Position numbers and translations under genes: made by a program. The notes below the pieces were generated by a model. It was given only the letters and a program-made list of their open reading frames with translations, ran no database searches and was not told the DNA's origin. Source: Patescibacteria group bacterium (lineage in GTDB: Bacteria; Patescibacteriota; Patescibacteriia; JAHJFT01). From it: a DNA stretch of 34,467 nucleotides. Positions within the stretch are counted from its first letter, which is position 1. Each line of letters opens with the position of its first letter. Location of the stretch: assembly GCA_028710985.1 (NCBI GenBank), contig JAQTTB010000001.1, positions 423,397-457,863 on the forward strand, in the 5' to 3' direction. Below are positions 5,604 through 30,247 of this stretch, in pieces.

Positions 5604-7328
5604 TTCGATAATCACCGGCAAAATCATGGGTCGGCGTTCAGTCTTTTTGAAGAGGTACTGTCCGACTTCATTGCGGATTTTATTTTTGATGTAATCATTG
5701 TCCGCCGCGCTCTTGGGATCGCGGTCCTGAACAAGTTTTTTCACCATGTGCCGCGTCTGTTCAATCAATTGTTTATTTTCTTTCATGTAAACAAATCCGC
5801 GGGAGATGATATCCGGATTGCCCAGAAGTTTTCCGGTCTTGGCGTCAACCGTCGCGATAATCACGACCATTCCGTCTTCGGCCAGGACCTGGCGGTCGCG
5901 GAGCACCACCTGCGAAATGTCGCCCACGCCGAGCCCGTCAACGAACACATAGTCGGTCGGCACGCGGGTTTGCGTGAGGTATCCGTTGTCGCGCGTAAAT
6001 TCCATAACCTGGCCGTTGTCGGCAATCAAAATATTTTTCGGGTTCATTCCCACGGACATCGCGACCTTGGCGTTGAGCCGCAGGAGATAATGGTTGCCTT
6101 CAATCGGAATAAAATATTTTGGATTCACCAGCCGGACCATGAGCTTCACGTCGTCGGCCTTGGCGTGGCCGCCGGCGTGCACGTCCATCATCTGGTAATG
6201 GATGATTTCCGCGCCCTTGCGCGCCAGCGTATCCTTAAGGCGCTGGATGGTGCGTTCATTTCCGGGAATCACTGACGACGAAAATACAATCGTGTCGCCC
6301 GGCCGGATGCGGACAAAACGATGCTCGTTATTGGCGATGCGCATCAGGCTCGCGCGCTCTTCGCCCTGGGCGCCGGTGCAGAGAATAATGATTTTTTCCG
6401 GGGGATAGTGGTCAACCTGGCTTACGTCAATGATCGTCCTGGGATTAAATTTTATGTATCCCATTTGCTTGGCGATTTCCACGTTGGTTTTCATGCCGTA
6501 GCCGTCAATCGCGACTTTTTTGTCAAGGCGCTCGGCGCATTCAATCACCTGTTTGATTCTCGCGAGGAGCGAAGCAAAAGTGCCGATAATCAGCCGGCCC
6601 GGAGCCTGCTGGATGATCTGCTCCAGATTGTGGCCGATTTCCATTTCCGATATCTGCGAGCCGAGCTGGGACGCGTTAGTTGAGTCCGAAAGCAAAGCCA
6701 AGACGCCGCGCTGGCCGACGAGGGCGATGTGGCCAAGGTCAATCGGCTGGTTGTCAACCGGCGTAAAGTCAAATTTCCAGTCGCCGGTATGCACAATCGT
6801 GCCGACCGGAGTCGTGATCACTACGCCCATTGAATCCGGGATGTTGTGGTTCACGTGGAAAAATTCAACGCGGAATTTTCCGAGCGTCAGGGTATCCTGC
6901 AGAGTTACATTATGCAGATTGAGTTTGGCGTTCTGGAAATCCTCCTGCCTCTTCTTGATGATGGCGTTCGTAATCGGCATGGCGTAAATCGGGGGATTGC
7001 CGAGGCGCGGAATCAGGTGGGGAATGCCGCCGATGTGGTCATAGTGGCCATGCGTGATAATTACGCCGCGGATATTTCGTTCCTTGCCGCGAAGGTATGT
7101 GATATTCGGAATAATATAATCAATGCCCGGCATGTCTTCTTCCGGAAACTGCAAGCCGAGATCAATCATAATAATGTCATTGCCGTATTCAATCAGCGTG
7201 CAATTGCGGCCGACCTCTTCAAGCCCGCCGAGGGAGATAATTTTAAGCCGGCCGCCGCCGTCGCGTTTGGGCGGCAGGGGCTTTCTCGGCCGGAACCGTT
7301 TAAAGTGTTTTGTTTTTCTTACCTCCAT
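5598..7328 (-). CDS. rnj: Ribonuclease J
   Basis: This is a metallo-beta-lactamase/beta-CASP ribonuclease of the RNase J family, which processes and decays RNA in the cytoplasm with endonuclease and 5'-3' exonuclease activity. The metal-binding motif HGHYDH is at residues 93-98. The beta-CASP domain follows at about 220-370 and the RNase J C-terminal domain reaches residue 576. The length is normal for the family. A basic tail (residues 1-25, rich in Arg, Lys and Pro) precedes the catalytic core. No Shine-Dalgarno lies upstream; the only GGAGG overlaps the start codon itself (ATGGAGG). The region just upstream is a degenerate TAGTTAGTAG tract. It probably leads the transcript that includes trpS. 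Confidence 0.96.
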   Translation of the reverse strand: MEVRKTKHFKRFRPRKPLPPKRDGGGRLKIISLGGLEEVGRNCTLIEYGNDIIMIDLGLQFPEEDMPGIDYIIPNITYLRGKERNIRGVIITHGHYDHIGGIPHLIPRLGNPPIYAMPITNAIIKKRQEDFQNAKLNLHNVTLQDTLTLGKFRVEFFHVNHNIPDSMGVVITTPVGTIVHTGDWKFDFTPVDNQPIDLGHIALVGQRGVLALLSDSTNASQLGSQISEMEIGHNLEQIIQQAPGRLIIGTFASLLARIKQVIECAERLDKKVAIDGYGMKTNVEIAKQMGYIKFNPRTIIDVSQVDHYPPEKIIILCTGAQGEERASLMRIANNEHRFVRIRPGDTIVFSSSVIPGNERTIQRLKDTLARKGAEIIHYQMMDVHAGGHAKADDVKLMVRLVNPKYFIPIEGNHYLLRLNAKVAMSVGMNPKNILIADNGQVMEFTRDNGYLTQTRVPTDYVFVDGLGVGDISQVVLRDRQVLAEDGMVVIIATVDAKTGKLLGNPDIISRGFVYMKENKQLIEQTRHMVKKLVQDRDPKSAADNDYIKNKIRNEVGQYLFKKTERRPMILPVIIEV

Positions 7329-7976: not shown

Positions 7977-8219
7977 TTATTTTAATCTTTTATTTCTAAA
8001 AGCTATCCCGGATGCTGTTTTTAAATACTTTTCAAAATCCAAGGCTTTCTTTTTGTTATCAAATGCGCAGTAGAAAATTATTTTCCATGGTCCATACTTA
8101 TTTGTATGGACTGATTTTCCATTATTGTGGTCATCCAATCTTTTATGAACATTTTCGGAAAAACCAGTGTAATACCGATTAGAAAATTTTAGACTCTGGA
8201 TGATATAAACGTAGTACAT
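7977..8219 (-). CDS. Small GIY-YIG domain protein (UPF0213-like)
   Basis: The 80-residue protein is a single GIY-YIG domain. It has YYVYIIQS (2-9) followed by YYTGFS (16-21), the two strands that give the family its name, then an Arg (KRLDDH) and a Glu (DFEKYLK) at the expected catalytic spacing. Such single-domain proteins are usually annotated as putative endonucleases of unknown substrate. It lies between tRNA-Leu with its hairpins and the unknown 198-residue gene, 1 bp from the latter. No Shine-Dalgarno. Confidence 0.88.
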   Translation of the reverse strand: MYYVYIIQSLKFSNRYYTGFSENVHKRLDDHNNGKSVHTNKYGPWKIIFYCAFDNKKKALDFEKYLKTASGIAFRNKRLK

Positions 8220-11713: not shown

Positions 11714-13492
11714 ATGAAGATTTTTGCTATAAAAATCAGTTCAATAGTTGCAGCCGTTTTTTTATTACTCATGCTGATTGCTCCAAACGCAATCGCGGCC
11801 GGGTGTTGCTTGGTTGAGCCGACGGAGCAAGAGACAACGGCGAAGAGCCTTGATTGTCCGGTGGCGGAATCAACCGCGGGCCAGATAGTTAGCTTTTTAG
11901 CCGATGTCGTTACGATTGGCCAGGGCGGCGAGGAGCTGTCTTCCTATATCATGTGCAAGGGAACCAAGGTTTTTGTTAAAAACTGCTACGATTCAATTAG
12001 CGCTGTAGATTGCACTAGCCAATATGGCAAGAATGCTGACTTCGATACCGATCGTTGCGGAGAGCAAAAAATTTATTCGTGCTTGAATTACGAAGCCGCG
12101 ACGTATAAAGGTCAAACGCTTGTACCAAAAATCGTTGATCCGCTTTGTTGGCCCGAGGATGAATGTATGGCCGGCTGTAAATATGGCGGCTGTTGGCAGG
12201 GGACTTCGTCCGAGTGTGTTGAGGGCAAGGGTTTTTGCTATGTTGACTACCCGAATGTTGAGCTCAACGTGCCAATCGGCGGAGTGACAACCGCCCGCGA
12301 TATTGGAAGCTATATCGCGCTTCTTTATAATTATCTTGTCGGCGTTGCCGTAATAGTCGCGATTGTCATGATTATGTACGGCGGATTCCGCTGGGTGACC
12401 GCGGCCGGCGATTCCGGGAAAATTAGTGAAGCCAAAAAAACCATGGTTGGCGCCGTGGTCGGGCTTGTTTTGGCTCTATTCTCATACACGCTTTTAAATA
12501 CAATAAATCCGGCGCTTGTCCGGCTCGATATGCCGGCGGTTAAAAAGATTCGGGCGATTTATTTTGAAGTTGAACCGGTGCGCTGCCAGGACTATGTCAC
12601 TAAATATGCCTGCGCGGAAAATAAATATAAATTTAATCTTGAAAAGGGTGAAGGTTGTGAGTGGAGATCTTTCGGCGGGCTTGGGTCGCAGTGCACGGTT
12701 AAGCCCGCTCCGGGGACCGGAGAACCCGGTGGCGTCTGCGGCTCGGGAAATAAATGCACAGGCGGAAAATGCATTATGAATATCCGTTATGCCATGGGTC
12801 CAATGGCCAGTGACTACACTACGCCAAAGAATTGGTGCAGTAACGGCGAGATGGATATGCCGTGCGACAAAGATGCGGATTGCGGCGTCGGACTTCTGTG
12901 TGATCAAAATCTCTACGCCTGCGTCGGTATGGATAGCGGCCGGCCGGTTTCCGCGGCTTGCAAAAATGACGCGGAGTGCTCCTCGGGATTATGTTATTTT
13001 GGCCAATGCCGTTCCGGGCAAAATGGCCAGTCATGCGGCGAAATCGGCCTTGAAGAAGGGGATGACGATCTTTGCGCCAGTTCGCAGGGATATAAATGTG
13101 TTGAATTCGCAAAGGGCAGCCCCTCTCTTCACAATTGGTATTGTTGTCCGCCGGCTTCGGCATCACGCGGCGGTGAACGGTGTTATGTCAAATGTACCAG
13201 CGATGCGCAGTGCGGTGGCGATTTATATTGCTGGCAAGGCAACGCTACGTTCGTATCCGCCTCGGATGCCGATAGAAGCGAGAAAGTGGCTGAATGGGAG
13301 GGTGTTTGCTTAAAAAGGGTCGGTTCCGGAGAGCGGTGTCTGAATGATAATGGATGCGAAGAGGGATTAAAGTGCAGCGATAAAGTTGCATTTCAAAAAA
13401 GCGATCCCGCGCTAACGGAATTATTAAAGGCGCCGAACGGAATGCTTATTTCATTCCCCGAACCAAAAATAAAAGTCGGCATTTGCAAGTAA
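11714..13492 (+). CDS. Very cysteine-rich membrane protein with a VirB2/TrbC pilin-like core
   Basis: The 592-residue protein has a signal peptide (about 1-28, cleavage near AIAA). A Cys-rich segment follows (31-175). Two membrane helices (about 197-222 and 241-265) flank the loop MYGGFRWVTAAGDSGKISEA, which matches the VirB2/TrbC-like pilin pattern common in Parcubacteria. A long second Cys-rich region (about 290-592) contains EB/dickkopf-like modules such as CKNDAECSSGLCYFGQC. I count about 44 cysteines. VirB2-like proteins are usually 100-150 residues, so this is a greatly enlarged form. It is translationally close to the DsbA-like gene, suggesting oxidative folding on the cell surface. 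A role in conjugation, DNA uptake or attachment cannot be told from sequence. No other secretion genes are nearby. Confidence 0.82.
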   Translation: MKIFAIKISSIVAAVFLLLMLIAPNAIAAGCCLVEPTEQETTAKSLDCPVAESTAGQIVSFLADVVTIGQGGEELSSYIMCKGTKVFVKNCYDSISAVDCTSQYGKNADFDTDRCGEQKIYSCLNYEAATYKGQTLVPKIVDPLCWPEDECMAGCKYGGCWQGTSSECVEGKGFCYVDYPNVELNVPIGGVTTARDIGSYIALLYNYLVGVAVIVAIVMIMYGGFRWVTAAGDSGKISEAKKTMVGAVVGLVLALFSYTLLNTINPALVRLDMPAVKKIRAIYFEVEPVRCQDYVTKYACAENKYKFNLEKGEGCEWRSFGGLGSQCTVKPAPGTGEPGGVCGSGNKCTGGKCIMNIRYAMGPMASDYTTPKNWCSNGEMDMPCDKDADCGVGLLCDQNLYACVGMDSGRPVSAACKNDAECSSGLCYFGQCRSGQNGQSCGEIGLEEGDDDLCASSQGYKCVEFAKGSPSLHNWYCCPPASASRGGERCYVKCTSDAQCGGDLYCWQGNATFVSASDADRSEKVAEWEGVCLKRVGSGERCLNDNGCEEGLKCSDKVAFQKSDPALTELLKAPNGMLISFPEPKIKVGICK

Positions 13493-22921: not shown

Positions 22922-24325
22922 ATGTATAAAAAGATTATACAATGCACAATCATTTCCGTAGCTCTGTTTTTTGTTGGCGTTTCGGCAAACGCAGCAGATT
23001 CGCGGGATTATGAAGTGCGTGTTTTTAACGGCTTTGAAATTATTGGAAACTTCATGGCCTTTGACAAGGGATATAACGGCGGCGCAAGTATCGCGGTCGG
23101 CGATTTGGGCGATGACGGCGTGCCGGAAGTGATTGTCGGTACGGGCCAGGGCAAGCCGCCGGAGATTAAAATATTCCGCCAGGACGGCACCATGGCGTAC
23201 ATGTTTTATGCTTACGCGCCGAGCTACGGACAGGGAGTAAATGTCGCGGTTTGCGATGTGAATCGCGATTTTAAAAACGAAATAATCACCGGTACGCAAT
23301 TTGGTGGCGGTCCGCACGTAAAGATTTTTGATGGTTACGGAAACGATATTTCTAAGGGCGGCTGGTTCGCGTACAACAAATTTTTTCGCGGCGGCGTGAA
23401 TGTCGCCTGCGGCGACTGGGACGGCGATGGGGAGAAAGAAATAATTACTGCCGCCGGTCCCTCGGGCGGACCGCATGTAAAAATTTTTAACAGTAACGGC
23501 GCCATGGAAACCGAATTCTTTGCTTTTCCGGCAGACAATCTTTCCGGCGTTTCGGTTGCCATGGGTCAGCTCGATGACGATTTCCCGGAAGAAGTCATTA
23601 TTTCTAGTTTTTCCTACGGCGATCCCATGGTCCGCGTATTTGAATATGGGATTAAGGGTTGGTATGAAAATAGCGAATGGCTTGCATATTCAAAAGATTA
23701 CAAAGGTGGTGTTTCGGTCGCGGCCGGAGATTTCGATAACGATAAACTTGACGAGATCGTCACTTCTCCAAACGGCGGCGGCGGTCCGCATGTCCGTCTT
23801 TTTGATAAATTCGGCAATTCAAAGGGTGAATTCTTTTCTTATGAGAATGATTATCGCGGCGGCGTGCGTGTTGCCCTGGCCGACATGAATGGCGGCGGCG
23901 AAGAAATAATTACTATTCCGACAAGCAAACTCATTGCCGGGCCGATCGGTCAGCCAAAGTTTATTGACATTGATATTACCAAACAAAGAATGACTGCGTA
24001 TGAGTGGGGAATTCCGATCAAGGTGTTTCTGGTGTCCACCGGCCTCTGGAAATATCCCACGCCCATCGGCAAAACGCAGATAAAATTAAAACAACTTTTT
24101 AAAGATTACGCATGGACTTACGGCGTTAACCATCCGGACAACTACAATCTGCCGAATGTGAAATACAATCTGAATATTTTTCCGCACGTTTTTATCCACT
24201 ACGCTTATTGGCATAATAATTTCGGTCATCGTATGAGCCATGGCTGCGTCAATATGCGGCTCGCGGATGTTGAGTGGATTTACAATTGGGCCGAAATCGG
24301 CACGCCGGTGGAAACGCACTACTAG
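22922..24325 (+). CDS. Secreted FG-GAP repeat protein with C-terminal L,D-transpeptidase (YkuD) domain
   Basis: This 467-residue exported protein joins a beta-propeller to a cell-wall cross-linking enzyme. A signal peptide (1-24, cleavage after VSANA) precedes about six FG-GAP/VCBS-like repeats (about 45-335) of the form GGVxVAxGDxDxDGxxEII followed by GGGPHVKIF. The YkuD domain follows at about 345-467, with His426 and the catalytic Cys442 in MSHGCVNM. The domain forms 3-3 cross-links in peptidoglycan or attaches proteins to it; the propeller probably positions the enzyme on the wall or binds a ligand. The gene begins 13 nt after the tRNA-Ile CCA with no Shine-Dalgarno, so tRNA and mRNA probably share a transcript separated by tRNA 3' processing. 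Confidence 0.93.
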   Translation: MYKKIIQCTIISVALFFVGVSANAADSRDYEVRVFNGFEIIGNFMAFDKGYNGGASIAVGDLGDDGVPEVIVGTGQGKPPEIKIFRQDGTMAYMFYAYAPSYGQGVNVAVCDVNRDFKNEIITGTQFGGGPHVKIFDGYGNDISKGGWFAYNKFFRGGVNVACGDWDGDGEKEIITAAGPSGGPHVKIFNSNGAMETEFFAFPADNLSGVSVAMGQLDDDFPEEVIISSFSYGDPMVRVFEYGIKGWYENSEWLAYSKDYKGGVSVAAGDFDNDKLDEIVTSPNGGGGPHVRLFDKFGNSKGEFFSYENDYRGGVRVALADMNGGGEEIITIPTSKLIAGPIGQPKFIDIDITKQRMTAYEWGIPIKVFLVSTGLWKYPTPIGKTQIKLKQLFKDYAWTYGVNHPDNYNLPNVKYNLNIFPHVFIHYAYWHNNFGHRMSHGCVNMRLADVEWIYNWAEIGTPVETHY

Positions 24326-24327
24326 GG

Positions 24328-24356
24328 TTTACAGTTTTTTAAAATTATGATAAAAA
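24328..24356 (+). promoter_or_regulatory. tRNA-Val promoter
   Basis: TTTACA (24328-24333), a 17-bp spacer and TAAAAA (24351-24356) preceded by TGA give a plausible promoter with its start near 24363, 8 nt before the tRNA. Confidence 0.6.
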
Positions 24357-24370
24357 TGTTGCAGCATTTT

Positions 24371-24447
24371 GGGCGGCTAGCTCAGCTGGTTAGAGCGCAA
24401 CATTGACATTGTTGAGGTCACAGGTTCGACTCCTGTGCCGCCCACCA
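24371..24447 (+). tRNA. tRNA-Val(GAC)
   Basis: Acceptor GGGCGGC/GCCGCCC, D stem GCTC/GAGC, anticodon stem CAACA/TGTTG around TTGACAT (anticodon GAC), T arm ACAGG-TTCGACT-CCTGT, discriminator A and encoded CCA make a complete 77-nt cloverleaf. Confidence 0.95.
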
Positions 24448-24517
24448 GATAGGTTTCGCGAAGCGATCCCGATTTCCGCGAAGCGGAACATCGGGACGAG
24501 CCCACGTACACCCACCA
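24448..24517. repeat. Palindromic element between copies of the tRNA-Val 3' end
   Basis: A nested palindrome TCCCGAT/ATCGGGA (24467-24473/24490-24496) with inner TTCCGC/GCGGAA lies between CCCACCA at the tRNA 3' end (24441-24447) and a second CCCACCA (24511-24517). The layout parallels the element before tRNA-Ile. Confidence 0.55.
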
Positions 24518-24520
24518 AAG

Positions 24521-24553
24521 AGACTTTCTGAGAGAAGGTCTTTTTTATTTTTC
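24521..24553 (+). terminator. Terminator after tRNA-Val
   Basis: AGACTTTCT and AGAGAAGGTCT pair around a short loop and are followed by TTTTTTATTTTT. It ends the tRNA-Val transcript just before the promoter of the ParB-like gene. Confidence 0.8.
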
Positions 24554-24554
24554 C

Positions 24555-24591
24555 TTGACCAAATTTAAAAATTCTGCCAATATTGAGCCAG
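24555..24591 (+). promoter_or_regulatory. Duplicated 37-bp promoter element, copy 1
   Basis: TTGACC (24555-24560), a 17-bp spacer and CAATAT (24578-24583) with a preceding TGC (extended -10) form a promoter for the ParB-like gene. The final 20 bases TTCTGCCAATATTGAGCCAG are identical in a second copy at 25671-25690. Confidence 0.7.
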
Positions 24592-24623
24592 CACATTTTA
24601 CCGACACGAAAAGGAGGAATATT

Positions 24624-25589
24624 ATGCGTTCTCGTGAAGAATCTCCGAAGCTGAAGCAATGGGCCAGGATGAGTGGCGGCGCGCCGACAATCATGAGCCT
24701 GCCGCTTATCATGATTGATGCAGGCGAGCTTTTCCGCACGCGGCTGAGGTTCGCGGACATAGAAGCTCTGGCCGCGGACATCCGCGAGAACGGTCAGCTT
24801 TCTCCTATGCTGGTCCGTCCGCGGGCAGATAGGAAGTATGATCTCATCGCCGGCTTTCGCCGCTATGCCGCTCTTCAGAAGTTGCGAGAGGCGACCGGCC
24901 TGGTGCGCATCTACGAGAACATCACAAATAGCGATGCTTTCTGCCTCGCCGTGGCCGAGAATGTCCAGCGCGACGATCTCACGCCACTCGAGAAGGCTCT
25001 CATCTGCGAGAAGCTTCATCTTGGGGGCATATCCAAGCCCAAGATCGCCAAGCTTGTCTTTCCGAGCATGGACGATCCTGAAGGCAGGACGGTTGCCAAC
25101 TATCTGACCATAGTAAAAACCGAGTTGCCGATCCGGGAAGCCTTGAGCCAGGGGAGAATCGGTTTCTCCCACGCGCTTGCCTTGGCGGACGCGGTCAAGT
25201 CCGAGCGGGCCAGAGATTACTTCAGGAAGAATCCGACGGCCATTGGGCGAATGATCAACCGCATCGCCATTGACGACCTTTCGGTTCGCGAGATCAAGGC
25301 CGGGCTCGCCGATCTACTGCGCGACCGACCCCATCGCGGCCGTCCGGCGGGTTCTGCTTCTTCTAGTTCAAGACCCAGCCGATCCGCGACTGCCCCTTCA
25401 GCCCCGCGCTCGGCGCATCCAACATCGCGGCTCTTCTGGAGGGACAATTCTCCGGAAAAGTGGCGCCTTGAGGTGAACTTCGACGGTCGTGCTCTTCGTC
25501 ACGATCCCGAATCCCTTGAGGAGATTGAGGAGAAACTCAAGGAAGCGCTTGAACGAGTGAGGAAGTTCCGGGAAAAAAATAGCTCCTGA
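24624..25589 (+). CDS. Orphan ParB/RepB/Spo0J-family protein
   Basis: The 321-residue protein has a ParB N-terminal domain (about 25-125) with the phosphate-binding AGFRRYAAL (76-84), where chromosomal ParB has GERR, and the conserved ENVQRDDLTPLEKA (112-125). A helix-turn-helix region follows (about 130-190). A Ser/Pro/Arg-rich linker (about 235-268) leads to a C-terminal coiled coil (about 295-318). I chose this ATG because of AAAGGAGGA 6 nt upstream; a TTG at the -35 box is not a credible start. No parA, parS-like site or replication origin is nearby, and the gene has its own promoter and terminator, so chromosome segregation is doubtful; a plasmid- or phage-derived regulator or nucleotide-binding protein is equally likely. 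Confidence 0.87.
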   Translation: MRSREESPKLKQWARMSGGAPTIMSLPLIMIDAGELFRTRLRFADIEALAADIRENGQLSPMLVRPRADRKYDLIAGFRRYAALQKLREATGLVRIYENITNSDAFCLAVAENVQRDDLTPLEKALICEKLHLGGISKPKIAKLVFPSMDDPEGRTVANYLTIVKTELPIREALSQGRIGFSHALALADAVKSERARDYFRKNPTAIGRMINRIAIDDLSVREIKAGLADLLRDRPHRGRPAGSASSSSRPSRSATAPSAPRSAHPTSRLFWRDNSPEKWRLEVNFDGRALRHDPESLEEIEEKLKEALERVRKFREKNSS

Positions 25590-25616
25590 CGTGCGGCTGA
25601 TTAGTTCTAGCTTATC

Positions 25617-25652
25617 GCCGGCCAAGCCTGAAAAGGTGCGGCCGGCTTTTTT
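25617..25652 (+). terminator. Terminator of the ParB-like gene
   Basis: GCCGGCC and GGCCGGC form a perfect 7-bp GC stem followed by TTTTTT. It runs directly into the second copy of the duplicated promoter. Confidence 0.9.
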
Positions 25653-25653
25653 C

Positions 25654-25690
25654 TTGACCAAATTATTTTTTTCTGCCAATATTGAGCCAG
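25654..25690 (+). promoter_or_regulatory. Duplicated 37-bp promoter element, copy 2
   Basis: TTGACC (25654-25659), a 17-bp spacer and CAATAT (25677-25682) preceded by TGC match copy 1 in length, boxes and the last 20 bases; differences are confined to the AT-rich spacer. It drives the unknown gene at 25716. Confidence 0.7.
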
Positions 25691-25715
25691 TAAACCCACA
25701 GACAGGAGGAGAGCG

Positions 25716-26135
25716 ATGAAGGTTAAAAACCTGGTCAGGAACGCGCGGTTCGAAAGAATAACTAAAGGAGCTGTGACTTTAGACACTCTGACTCTTTCGA
25801 TGGATCCGTACCCCGAGGTTGAAATCGTATTCGATGGCCATCGCCCGGATTCCGGTTCGTGCCGAGTACTTCTAGAAACATCGAAAAAGTCGGGCGTCAC
25901 GAGCATGACTTCCTGTTGCGGTCCGATCTCCGGCAAGCCGCTGGAAGGAGCGGGTATTTACGAGGAGCTCTTTAAGCTGACCGACGGTGACGGACCGGTG
26001 CGCGTTCAGCTTACCGGGGAGCTTGCGTACGAGGGGGCGTTAGAGGGCGCTGACCGGCGTCTAGGCAGCAAGCCGCACGGCCGTTACGTGCTGTATGTCG
26101 TTGAGTGTATTATCTTCACCATCGGTACGAGGTAG
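25716..26135 (+). CDS. Unknown 139-residue protein with strong Shine-Dalgarno
   Basis: I do not recognise this protein. It has no signal peptide. The sequence suggests beta strands (VTLDTLTLSMDPYPEVEIVF, VRVQLTGELAYEG, YVLYVVECIIFTIG) and contains only one adjacent cysteine pair (SCCGP) plus two single cysteines. It starts at an ATG preceded by AGGAGGAG. Like the ParB-like gene it is a single-gene unit with the duplicated promoter and a private terminator, so the two may be expressed together. A small beta-barrel or ligand-binding fold is possible but not shown. Confidence 0.72.
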   Translation: MKVKNLVRNARFERITKGAVTLDTLTLSMDPYPEVEIVFDGHRPDSGSCRVLLETSKKSGVTSMTSCCGPISGKPLEGAGIYEELFKLTDGDGPVRVQLTGELAYEGALEGADRRLGSKPHGRYVLYVVECIIFTIGTR

Positions 26136-26181
26136 GGGGTAGAGGCTCGTCACTCGCGAGAGAAGGGTCGGAGGGAACTTG

Positions 26182-26211
26182 TCTCAGGCAGAAATGTCTG
26201 AGATCTTTTTT
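26182..26211 (+). terminator. Terminator of the 139-residue unknown gene
   Basis: TCTCAG-GCA and TGT-CTGAGA form a stem with one mismatch around a GAAA loop, followed by TCTTTTTT. It faces the terminator of the convergent DHH-fold gene. Confidence 0.8.
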
Positions 26212-26212
26212 A

Positions 26213-26244
26213 TAAAAAAAGCGGGGCATTCCGTTTTGCCTCGC
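26213..26244 (-). terminator. Terminator of the DHH-fold gene
   Basis: On the minus strand GCGAGGCA and TGCCCCGC (26244-26237/26228-26221) pair with one mismatch and are followed by TTTTTTT. Confidence 0.8.
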
Positions 26245-26262
26245 CGGTTTGCGGTAAATTTT

Positions 26263-27405
26263 TTATTTTCCAGCCATTGCGAGCTGGTTTTTTAGATGCC
26301 CGATAATTTTTTCTTCCGCCTGGGTGAGCCCGGGTTCGGGAATCGTAAAATCGGCGCGCAAGTTTGTGCCCCGGCTGCCGTAGGGACGCGCGAGCTCGGC
26401 GGCATTGTGCGGTTTTTCCGCGTGCAGGACGCCGCACACGTGATTTTCATGTTCGTATAAAATAAGCACAACCGCCGCGCGGGGAGAATTGACAATCAGT
26501 TCGCTTACAATATCGTCAAGATCCGCCGCGCCGGCGCCGGAAAGCGAAAAGTCGTCGCGCGTCAGCATGGTCCAGACAAGCCCGAGCGATTCGTCGGCCC
26601 GCAAACGGGCCAAGGCGCGTCCCCAGAGTTTGAGCGTCGGGATGGTGCGGGTGCGGTAAAGATTATGGATAATCTCTTCGCGCCGCGCGCCCAGAGCGGT
26701 AAGCTGGCTTGCCGTGGCGAGCGTCTGCGGCGTGACATTCGGCGCCCGGAAGCTGCGGGTCTTGGCGATCATGCCGGCAAGCAGCAGGGTGGCCATATCT
26801 TCATCTATAAAATTCCGGTTGATATTGTCATAAATTCCAAAAACCACTTCCGAGGCCGAGGTCGCGGTGATGTCAACATGGTTGATCTGGCCGTAATGCT
26901 CGTTCGCCGGATTGGAATCGATGTTGATAATCGGCGTGCGGTAAAAAAAGTCGGAATGGTTGTCGTATGTTTTTCCGATTGATTCAAGGTCCGGCGTATC
27001 CACGCTGATGACCAGATCGTATTTATATTCCGTGGTCTGGGTTTTGATGTCGCGTTCCGACCAGGTGCCCCCCTGGGGCGCAAGATAAATTTCCAGAATA
27101 TCGCCCTTGAGATCATAGCTCAGGTCCTGAAATTTGGTGCGGGACGTGTCCAGCTTGATGACAAACTTATTCATATTCTCCAGGCCCGGTTTTACGACAT
27201 CAAGATGCGGCAGGAACCGGAGATTCGGCCGCGCGGAATAGTCTTCAAGCAAAAAATCCGGCTGTTTTTCGAGCTTCTCGGCCAGCTTAAAAATCCCAAG
27301 ACCGGCGGTCAGGGTGTCAGGCTCCCAGGCGCGCCGCGCCACGATAAGCGGCCGCTTGCTGCGCTGGATTGCCTCATAAACCTGTTGTATTTGATTGAGG
27401 GCCAT
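26263..27405 (-). CDS. DHH-family phosphoesterase-like protein, catalytic residues lost
   Basis: The 380-residue protein follows the NrnA/RecJ-like DHH fold: an N-terminal DHH domain (about 1-225) and a DHHA1-type C-terminal domain (about 275-378). Active relatives degrade short oligonucleotides, pAp or cyclic dinucleotides with Mn ions. Here the metal ligands are largely gone: the motif I pattern HxxPDxDxxGS reads RAWEPDTLTAG (25-35), the signature DHH reads DSN (163-165, NIDSNPANEHYG), and the usual DTG of motif IV reads KTR (214-217). Only Asp136 and Asp139 in VDTPD remain. The length and fold are otherwise intact, so it is probably a non-catalytic binding protein and not a decayed gene. 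It has its own promoter. Confidence 0.82.
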   Translation of the reverse strand: MALNQIQQVYEAIQRSKRPLIVARRAWEPDTLTAGLGIFKLAEKLEKQPDFLLEDYSARPNLRFLPHLDVVKPGLENMNKFVIKLDTSRTKFQDLSYDLKGDILEIYLAPQGGTWSERDIKTQTTEYKYDLVISVDTPDLESIGKTYDNHSDFFYRTPIINIDSNPANEHYGQINHVDITATSASEVVFGIYDNINRNFIDEDMATLLLAGMIAKTRSFRAPNVTPQTLATASQLTALGARREEIIHNLYRTRTIPTLKLWGRALARLRADESLGLVWTMLTRDDFSLSGAGAADLDDIVSELIVNSPRAAVVLILYEHENHVCGVLHAEKPHNAAELARPYGSRGTNLRADFTIPEPGLTQAEEKIIGHLKNQLAMAGK

Positions 27406-27523: not shown

Positions 27524-30247
27524 ATGAAACCTGAACTCGCCAAGGCCTACGAACCGCAGAAATGCGAGGCCGAGATTTATAAACGCTGGGAAAAGAGCGG
27601 TTTTTTTAATCCCGACAACCTTCCTCCGCTCAAGAGCTCCGGCAAGGCAGGCCTTCCGGGCAAGCGGACCGCCAAATTCAGCATTGTCCTGCCGCCGCCC
27701 AATGTCACCGGCATTTTGCACATGGGCCATGCCGCCATGCTCGCGATTGAGGATCTCGTGGTCCGCTACAAGAGAATGCGCGGCTACAAAACGCTCTGGC
27801 TTCCGGGCGTTGACCACGCCGCCATCGCGACCCAGGCAAAGGTTGAAAAAATCCTGCTCAAAGAAAAAAAACTCTCCCGCCACGACCTGGGCCGGAAAAA
27901 ATTTTTGCAGGAAGTCGCGGCGTATGTGGAAACCACCCGCGCCGCCATCATCTCGCAGATTAAAAAAATGGGTTCAAGCCTGGACTGGTCGCGCATGACC
28001 TACACCCTGGATGAGGCGCGTACCCGCGCCGTGCGCACGGTTTTTAAAAAAATGTACGACGACGGGCTGATTTATCGCGGCGAGCGCATCGTGAACTGGT
28101 GTCCGCGCTGCGGCTCAACTCTTTCGGACGACGAAGTGGAGCACCGGGAGACCGAGGGCAAGCTTTATTTCATCAAATACGGCCCGCTCGTGGTGGCAAC
28201 TACGCGGCCGGAAACCAAAATCGGCGACACGGCCGCCGCCGTCCATCCGGATGATGAGCGTTATAGAAAATATCACGGCAAAGAAATAGAGGTGCCGCTC
28301 GGAAAAATAAAGATCAAAGTCAAAGTCATCGCCGATCCGGCGGTTGACCCCGCTTTCGGCACCGGCGTGGTCGGCGTGACGCCGGCGCATAGCCAGGATG
28401 ATTTCGCCATGGCCGGGCGCCACAAACTCCCACTCGTGCGCGTTATCGGCACCGACGGCCGCATGACCAGCGAGGCCGGGCCGTATGCCGGGCTTGCGTC
28501 CGCCGAATGCCGGGAAAAATTCATTGATGATCTCGTTGCGGCGAAGCTCTTGAGCAAAATCGAAGATTATCCCATAAGTCTCTCGGTCTGTTATCGCTGT
28601 GAAACGCCGATTGAGCCCCTGCCGTCGCTTCAGTGGTTTGTTGATGTGAATAAAAAAATTCCGCGCCGCGGCAAGTCGTTAAAACAGCTCGCCGCCGAGG
28701 CGGTGCGCGAAGGCGACATCAAAATAATTCCGGATCGTTTTGAAAAAATATATTTTCACTGGATGGATAATTTGCGCGACTGGTGTATCTCGCGCCAGAT
28801 CTGGTTCGGCCATCGCATTCCGGTTTGGTATTGCATATCATGTACAAGCAAAAAAGTAGATAGGACACATGAAATGATAAAGTCCTTGAGCCAAATGTAT
28901 CCGACCGGTAAGGAAAAAGGGGTGATGGTATCTATCGATGAACCGAAGGTATGCCCGTATTGTGGAGGGTCAGATATTCAGCAGGATCCGGACACGCTTG
29001 ATACCTGGTTTTCGTCCGGGCTCTGGACTTTTTCCACGCTCGGCTGGCCCGAAGAAAACGCTGATTTGAAAAATTATCATCCAACCGATCTGATGGAGAC
29101 CGGCTATGACATCATATTTTTCTGGGTGGCGCGCATGATTCTCATGACCACCTACGTTCTTGATGAAATTCCGTTTTCCAAAGTTTATCTCCACGGCCTG
29201 GTGCGCGACGAACTCGGCCGCAAAATGAGTAAATCCCTGGGCAACCAGATCGATCCGGTTGAAGTCGCGGAAAAATTCGGCACCGACGCGGTGCGCTTGA
29301 GTCTATTAATCGGCGCTTCGCCGGGCAATGACATGAAGATGAGCGAAGAAAAAATCGCCGGCTTCCGCAATTTTGCGAACAAGCTTTGGAATATTTCGCG
29401 CTATGTCCTGACTTCCGCGGGCGCGGCCAAGCTCCAGCCCAAGCCGCCGAAGGCAAAAACTCTCGCCGACGCCTGGATACTTTCGCGGTTTGCCCGCGTT
29501 AAAGAGCGGGTTGAAGAATTGATTGAAGATTATCAGCTTTCCGCGGCCGGCGAATTGCTCCGGGATTTTACCTGGGGGGATTTTGCCGACTGGTATCTGG
29601 AAATTTCAAAAATTGAAAACAAGAAAGACGAAATTCTCATGTTTATCCTTGAGCGCCTGCTCGCGCTCTGGCATCCGTTCATGCCGTTTGTCACCGAGCA
29701 CATCTGGTCGCAGATTTCCGGCAAAGACCTTCTCATGATTCACGACTGGCCCAAAGACGAGAAGAAATTAATCGATAAAAAGAGGGAAAATGAATTCGGA
29801 AAAATTCAGGAGCTTGTTACCCGGGTGCGCAATCTGCGCGCGGCCTACAAAATCGATCCTGCTAAAAAAATCAACCTGCTGATTTCCGCCGGCGCCGATG
29901 AAAAACTTTTCACCGAACACGCCGCGGTGATTGCCGCGCTCGCGCGCGCCGAAAAAATTGAAATCAAAAAGAAAATAAAAAAACCCGGGCAGTGCCTCGC
30001 GCTGGTCGTCGGCAGGGTGGAAGTATTCATGCCGGTCGGGGGAGTGATTGATTTGGAAAAAGAGCTCGCTCGTCTAAAAATGGAAGCCGAAAATTTACAG
30101 AGGTATATTAGGAGCATGCGTATCAATCTAGATAATCCGGAATATTTGTCTAAGGCTCCAAAAAATATTGTGGAACTTCATAAAGCAAACGCGATTGCCG
30201 CTGAGGCAAGATTAGAAAAATTAAACCAGCAAATTAAAGCCCTATAA
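27524..30247 (+). CDS. valS: Valine--tRNA ligase
   Basis: This class I synthetase charges tRNA-Val and edits misactivated threonine. The catalytic signature is PPPNVTGILHMGHA (57-70) and KMSKS is at about 567-571. The CP1 editing domain is present (ATTRPETKIGD, later VVGVTPAHSQDDF), as are zinc-knuckle pairs (WCPRCGS; YCISC with CPYCGG). The tRNA-binding domain and C-terminal coiled coil (about 830-907, with LEKELARLKMEAENL) are complete; 907 residues is normal. Codons at about 436-489 look more AT-rich and unlike their surroundings. The gene leads a transcript with tyrS 3 bp downstream. Confidence 0.98.
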   Translation: MKPELAKAYEPQKCEAEIYKRWEKSGFFNPDNLPPLKSSGKAGLPGKRTAKFSIVLPPPNVTGILHMGHAAMLAIEDLVVRYKRMRGYKTLWLPGVDHAAIATQAKVEKILLKEKKLSRHDLGRKKFLQEVAAYVETTRAAIISQIKKMGSSLDWSRMTYTLDEARTRAVRTVFKKMYDDGLIYRGERIVNWCPRCGSTLSDDEVEHRETEGKLYFIKYGPLVVATTRPETKIGDTAAAVHPDDERYRKYHGKEIEVPLGKIKIKVKVIADPAVDPAFGTGVVGVTPAHSQDDFAMAGRHKLPLVRVIGTDGRMTSEAGPYAGLASAECREKFIDDLVAAKLLSKIEDYPISLSVCYRCETPIEPLPSLQWFVDVNKKIPRRGKSLKQLAAEAVREGDIKIIPDRFEKIYFHWMDNLRDWCISRQIWFGHRIPVWYCISCTSKKVDRTHEMIKSLSQMYPTGKEKGVMVSIDEPKVCPYCGGSDIQQDPDTLDTWFSSGLWTFSTLGWPEENADLKNYHPTDLMETGYDIIFFWVARMILMTTYVLDEIPFSKVYLHGLVRDELGRKMSKSLGNQIDPVEVAEKFGTDAVRLSLLIGASPGNDMKMSEEKIAGFRNFANKLWNISRYVLTSAGAAKLQPKPPKAKTLADAWILSRFARVKERVEELIEDYQLSAAGELLRDFTWGDFADWYLEISKIENKKDEILMFILERLLALWHPFMPFVTEHIWSQISGKDLLMIHDWPKDEKKLIDKKRENEFGKIQELVTRVRNLRAAYKIDPAKKINLLISAGADEKLFTEHAAVIAALARAEKIEIKKKIKKPGQCLALVVGRVEVFMPVGGVIDLEKELARLKMEAENLQRYIRSMRINLDNPEYLSKAPKNIVELHKANAIAAEARLEKLNQQIKAL

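Follow-up and report, generated by a model that had tools for sequence, protein, structure and literature searches.

Two adjacent copies of a promoter-like element precede an orphan ParB-like gene and a gene without recognisable family in a Patescibacteria genome

Two neighbouring genes in a 34,467-nucleotide stretch of a Patescibacteria genome (the window, by which we mean the whole of the DNA analysed) are preceded by nearly the same 37 bp, and the question that this locus raises is why the two elements are so alike. A sequence-only reading of the window had described two 37-bp elements with the same boxes and an identical 20-base end, and this description was confirmed: the copies agree at 31 of 37 positions, and the 20-bp end, TTCTGCCAATATTGAGCCAG, lies at 24572-24591 and 25671-25690 with 0 mismatches. 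Such a match arose in 0 of 100 shuffles of the window, and no third copy of TTCTGCCAATATTGAGCCAG was found in the window at ≤3 mismatches. The same reading held that the AT spacer had diverged; divergence does lie there, but it covers only six contiguous bases and not the entire spacer. All six differences fall at positions 12-17 of the element (TAAAAA versus ATTTTT), and the probability that six random differences would be contiguous is 1.4e-5. The copies are 1099 bp apart and form direct repeats that bracket the ParB-like gene. Their flanks are dissimilar, with 11/30 identities upstream and 6/30 downstream, and a repeat finder stretches the pair to 44 nt owing to the T-run that precedes both copies.

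The surroundings of the two elements are compact (Table 1), in the order tRNA-Val, terminator, promoter 1, Shine-Dalgarno (SD) site, ParB-like gene, terminator, promoter 2, SD site, 139-aa gene, terminator and convergent gene. An arrangement in terminator-promoter-SD-gene-terminator cassettes, as had been proposed, is well supported, with a hairpin and T-run before each copy and a third hairpin after the second gene. From left to right, 3, 0 and 0 of 200 shuffles fold as well as the three hairpins; a simple terminator scan finds the first and third and misses the second. The two leaders have no more structure than shuffles, and across 24300-26300 the tRNA is the sole Rfam match.

Table 1. Features of the two cassettes and their neighbours, in window positions
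Feature	Position	Strand	Evidence or remark
tRNA-Val (GAC), to the left of both cassettes	24371..24447	+	tRNA search; Rfam
Terminator hairpin and T-run before promoter copy 1	24517..24545	+	-12.7 kcal/mol; terminator scan
Promoter copy 1 (putative): TTGACC, 17 bp, TGC extension, CAATAT; expected start close to its end	24555..24591	+	activity inferred
SD site AAGGAGG of the ParB-like gene	24611..24617	+	sequence
Orphan ParB-like gene, 321 aa, ATG at 24624	24624..25589	+	family profiles
Terminator hairpin and T-run between the two genes	25617..25646	+	-23.3 kcal/mol, z -4.5
Promoter copy 2 (putative), as copy 1 save positions 12-17	25654..25690	+	activity inferred
SD site AGGAGG of the 139-aa gene	25704..25709	+	sequence
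139-aa gene, no family or relative recognised, ATG at 25716	25716..26135	+	searches
Terminator hairpin after the 139-aa gene	26181..26204	+	-14.2 kcal/mol; terminator scan
DHH-type gene, right of the cassettes	26263..27405	convergent	weak NrnA match

Two side features lie to the left of the cassettes. Between tRNA-Val and the first terminator (24448-24515), a short palindromic unit occurs twice, as TTTCGCGAAGCG and TTCCGCGAAGCG, 20 bases apart and bracketed by two CCCACCA stretches that resemble a tRNA 3' end; this stretch is possibly a small insertion akin to REP or MITE elements. A gene for a YkuD-domain protein (L,D-transpeptidase) with FG-GAP repeats occupies 22922-24325, between tRNA-Ile and tRNA-Val, and is possibly another insertion at the tRNA cluster.

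What kind of element is repeated? It reads TTGAC, 15 bases, TGC, CAATAT. The -35 box, TTGACC, has 5/6 bases of TTGACA, and the -10 candidate, TGC followed by CAATAT at a 17-bp spacer, has 3/6 of TATAAT, including A2 and T6. A promoter scan instead scored AATATT, at 18-bp spacing and without the TG, but comparison across the class favours the TGC-CAATAT register, with CAATAT itself in only 6/96 matches. In its own genome, a pattern of the element's type has 71 sites at ≤3 mismatches, against 22 for a reversed control. Many of these sites are TGCTAAAAT or TGCTATAAT, which is probably the resident promoter style of this genome.

We searched 380 genomes of the class, allowing zero mismatches, for TTGAC-N15-TGN[C/T]AATAT with GGAGG 12-40 bases further on. 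This architecture with its SD site is found in 60/380 genomes (96 listed matches, one site twice; reversed control 0), and its TATAAT version in 56/380 genomes at more than 100 places (control 0). A narrower core, with one mismatch allowed and no SD site demanded, is found in 30/380 genomes, with control matches in 2. Because the [C/T]AATAT and TATAAT forms are about equally common, the -10 variant marks no special class, and we rejected that idea. The exact CAATAT form is uncommon, its six cases (the own two, one each in G059 and G364, and two in G276; all others read TAATAT) being too few to judge. Loci in two other class genomes, L019 (1-3032, minus strand) and L038 (1500-3032), closely resemble the cassettes of the window: T-rich sequence that looks like a hairpin comes first, then a TGCCAATATNGAG promoter and an SD site, then a GC-rich gene.

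The two promoters could have converged independently on one host consensus, and class promoters do have the boxes and an A-rich spacer start in common. We compared 73 of the 96 [C/T]AATAT promoter strings, a set that does not include the identical pair in G276. Higher information was seen at three spacer columns, namely the first and second behind TTGAC (0.84 and 0.67 bits) and the second ahead of TG (0.71 bits), but TGAGCCAG is not the class consensus, the columns after the -10 holding only 0.08-0.50 bits each. With so little conservation behind the -10 in these promoters, the 20 bp that the two copies have in common belong to this pair alone. The own pair is alike at 17/23 non-box positions and at 8/8 positions after the -10, against maxima of 14/23 and 7/8 in 69 other within-genome pairs; among 2627 pairs overall, 3 reach 17/23 and 1 reaches 8/8. 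Since none of these 69 pairs is as alike outside the boxes, a common origin is likelier than convergence, which we consider improbable. The identical promoters in G276 (loci L195 and L196) precede two similar short genes at two contig ends; we rejected this pair as a parallel, since with similar genes behind it, it looks like a gene duplication.

The sequence-only reading had taken the 20-bp block to imply either a regulator common to both genes or a special class of promoter, and had advised searching the genome for it. The search returned only two copies, side by side, at ≤3 mismatches, which is part of what that reading had itself named as counting against it. With no further copies in the genome, a private regulon was rejected; with TATAAT promoters equally common and low-information bases after the -10, neither part of the proposal is supported. 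A phage origin of the block was also rejected, its degenerate form giving 0 matches in viral contigs.

A narrower form of regulation has to be weighed in the light of the ParB-like gene itself. By its ParB_N and HTH_ParB matches, the predicted product of this gene qualifies for the ParB family: it matches Pfam ParB_N at 2.3e-10 (40.8 bits, cut-off 26.3) and HTH_ParB at 2.4e-4 (21.6 bits, just under the cut-off of 22.6), and it passes TIGR00180 (70.7 bits, cut-off 58.45). Among solved structures, Spo0J and Noc are the best relatives of this protein. ParB-like matches at E 1e-8 or better occur in 343/380 class genomes, with 28-40% identity among the matches listed; genome_contigs gave two distant relatives (27-30% identity) and viral contigs none, and 29 phage and 533 plasmid records were all <60% identical. 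A search of defence families gave one weak match for this protein (E 0.0081) and none for the 139-aa protein. No ParABS partition system with adjacent parA and parS was found at the locus. Six window proteins scanned with Pfam included neither a ParA family member nor a recombinase, and the sole parS-like site in the window, at 6847, has 3 mismatches and is at chance level (13/100 shuffles were as good). One of the distant class matches is a second ParB in the genome itself, which adjoins a gene that we take, by eye, to encode a ParA-like protein (C1:136500-139500). A 2025 survey reports that ParB proteins are frequently orphans, in many cases linked to mobile elements (PMC12704722).

The block could accordingly be an operator together with a promoter core, through which a local protein, possibly the ParB-like protein itself, would co-regulate both genes in the manner of KorB or VirB. 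Identity does run from the end of the spacer to the expected start in both copies, one of the two genes encodes a relative of Spo0J and Noc, and ParB-fold regulators exist (PMC11790492, PMC10770331). By eye, the block also holds a dyad, CTGCC-8-GCCAG, but this is weak, with 4/5 positions paired. The lack of a third genomic copy, the low conservation of the block bases across the class and the chance-level parS-like site likewise speak against an operator, and we regard it as unlikely, if less so than convergence.

The 139-aa protein offers no comparable lead. Profile searches gave no recognisable family, scans of genome_contigs and viral contigs, which find close relatives only, gave 0 relatives, and no relative was found in phages. 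There was no match in the 379 other class genomes, leaving only the genome itself (1/380). A single-sequence fold model was unusable (mean pLDDT 31.8).

The direct repeats around the ParB-like gene allow one more interpretation, in which they would be not promoters but sites where a mobile cassette array recombines or inserts, each consisting of 11 bp, a 6-bp variable core and a 20-bp arm. A variable six-base core is a layout superficially like that of recombination core sites. Here, however, the boxes and their spacing are promoter-like, a third copy after the second gene is absent, dyad arms around the six variable bases were not seen by eye, and the scanned window proteins lacked a recombinase, as noted above. 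We think it very improbable that the repeats are such sites.

We therefore favour, at a probability of roughly 0.65, two copies of an ordinary promoter type that go back to one origin and stand before two acquired genes, with a regulon unsupported. Each element would be a housekeeping-type sigma-70 extended -10 promoter (-35 TTGACC, 17-bp spacer, TGC, CAATAT), with transcription beginning at a putative start close to the end of the block. Each putative promoter would drive one leadered, SD-initiated accessory gene with terminators on both sides, and the two genes would be a small island of acquired DNA, flanked by tRNA-Val and the convergent DHH-type gene. The non-box bases would be common to both because one promoter was copied from the other or because the same source supplied both, and the six-base AT stretch of the spacer would have changed after copying. 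Promoter activity, start site and acquisition, as well as the direction and age of the copying, are what we infer from these features. Some observations count against this account. The genes and flanks are unrelated, so only ~37-44 bp of any copied segment can be recognised; CAATAT, three bases away from TATAAT, is uncommon among the class matches; and some between-genome pairs (3/2627) also reach 17/23. Moreover, the confinement of six differences to one block means that simple decay of a duplicate is insufficient unless selection, conversion or block replacement is added.

Codon usage deviates in the ParB-like and 139-aa genes (z -5.6 and -4.0), and it also does so elsewhere in the window, at 11714-13492 (z -5.1), at 7977-8219 (z -5.2) and in two doubtful ORFs (-6.5 and -7.1). 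The DHH-type gene to the right takes its label from a weak, sub-threshold NrnA match (15 bits, cut-off 350); the protein was matched in 54/57 relatives, in some only by a second, less similar family. Around this gene we examined 12 loci, the own locus included. Its neighbour at 27524-30247, presumably ValS (named by eye), is also present in 8/11 other loci, divergent in seven and co-directional in L173, and tRNA-Val or tRNA-Ile lies inside the locus in six of those examined. In three loci the DHH-type gene has its 3' end towards tRNA-Val, at ~1250 bp (L168), ~560 bp (L171) and ~40 bp (L174); the corresponding gap in the window is ~1.8 kb and holds both cassettes. L174, from a genome of another family (G009), has the arrangement without cassettes, its tRNA-Val beginning ~40 bp from where the DHH match ends, and the sole same-family genome compared gave a weak, probably paralogous DHH match. 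The cassettes look as if inserted between tRNA-Val and the DHH-type gene; with L174 from another family and the same-family match weak, these loci would give the ancestral site only approximately.

To place the two cassettes in a broader setting, we drew 60 loci from the class matches, 30 each from the [C/T]AATAT and TATAAT forms. A gene of ≥40 aa behind promoter and SD site was obtained at 45/60, one of them the ParB-like gene itself; the other 15 were dropped because the start codon was out of range or the gene too short, and at least two of them look by eye like what we take to be RNase P RNA genes. The promoter-plus-SD genes are GC-richer than their flanks (20/24 and 17/21), and a terminator follows 22/42 of them versus 2/24 controls (p 0.0004). 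Pfam found 15 families among the 45, each in one member and belonging, to judge by family kind, to probably about eight proteins. The 45 longest neighbouring ORFs, taken as a control, gave 73 Pfam families and SD sites on 5/45, a contrast inflated in both respects because these ORFs were selected for length and some begin right at the edge of their locus. PHROGs gave 27 families for the 45 genes, each with one member and many ParB-like, and these one-member families do not show a general phage origin. Overall, most of the promoter-plus-SD genes examined are short, lack a Pfam family and exceed their flanks in GC content, and a terminator often follows them, whereas most neighbouring ORFs have no SD site.

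Within the window, SD sites are found on both cassette genes versus 1/23 other genes, the two doubtful ORFs being excluded; 22/23 of these others lack a GGAGG/AGGAG site. A -10-like box ends 4-14 nt before the ATG in 6/23 of them versus 2.0 expected under base shuffling, and 7/1000 shuffles reach six genes. Several window genes have such a box 9-12 nt before the ATG, for example those at 519, 2601, 13681 and 27524. For genes of this kind, the position of the box is suggestive of leaderless or short-leader transcripts.

A pattern may link these observations, and we advance it tentatively, as less likely true than false. Self-contained accessory units would be widespread across the class, each made of a strong extended -10 promoter, a leader with a strong SD site, a short, GC-richer gene of no family and a terminator, while most class genes would be SD-less; the pair in the window would be two such units sharing a copied promoter, and copying would arm newly acquired orphan genes. 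Accounts of such a pattern in Patescibacteria or CPR were absent from the matches listed, which is weak evidence of absence, and the passages of PMC12641178 and PMC6851277 on leaderless and Shine-Dalgarno initiation do not treat it. On its own, the repeat would be an ordinary promoter type that occurs twice, with no sign of a wider control circuit. If the pattern holds, a simple signature in the sequence would help to pick out expressed accessory genes from the many unknown ones that small-genome, probably symbiotic bacteria carry, and one would have to ask why accessory genes are SD-led while most resident genes seem SD-less.

Among known systems, the ParB-like gene differs from the orphan ParB-like CTPase-fold proteins surveyed in PMC12704722 in having distant relatives only and no parS seen in the window; it resembles them in its ParB_N domain, its near-cut-off HTH_ParB domain and its position away from parA. 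The element itself is like sigma-70 extended -10 (TGn) promoters in its TTGAC and, in the favoured register, its 17-bp spacer and the TG one base before the -10 hexamer, and unlike their consensus in that its putative -10 is CAATAT, not TATAAT; its starts are predicted, and its copies share non-box bases. Integron or pdif-type gene cassettes carry single genes as self-contained units. It is in this organisation that they resemble the units of the window, in which no attC- or dif-like site was seen by eye and each gene has its own putative promoter and terminator.
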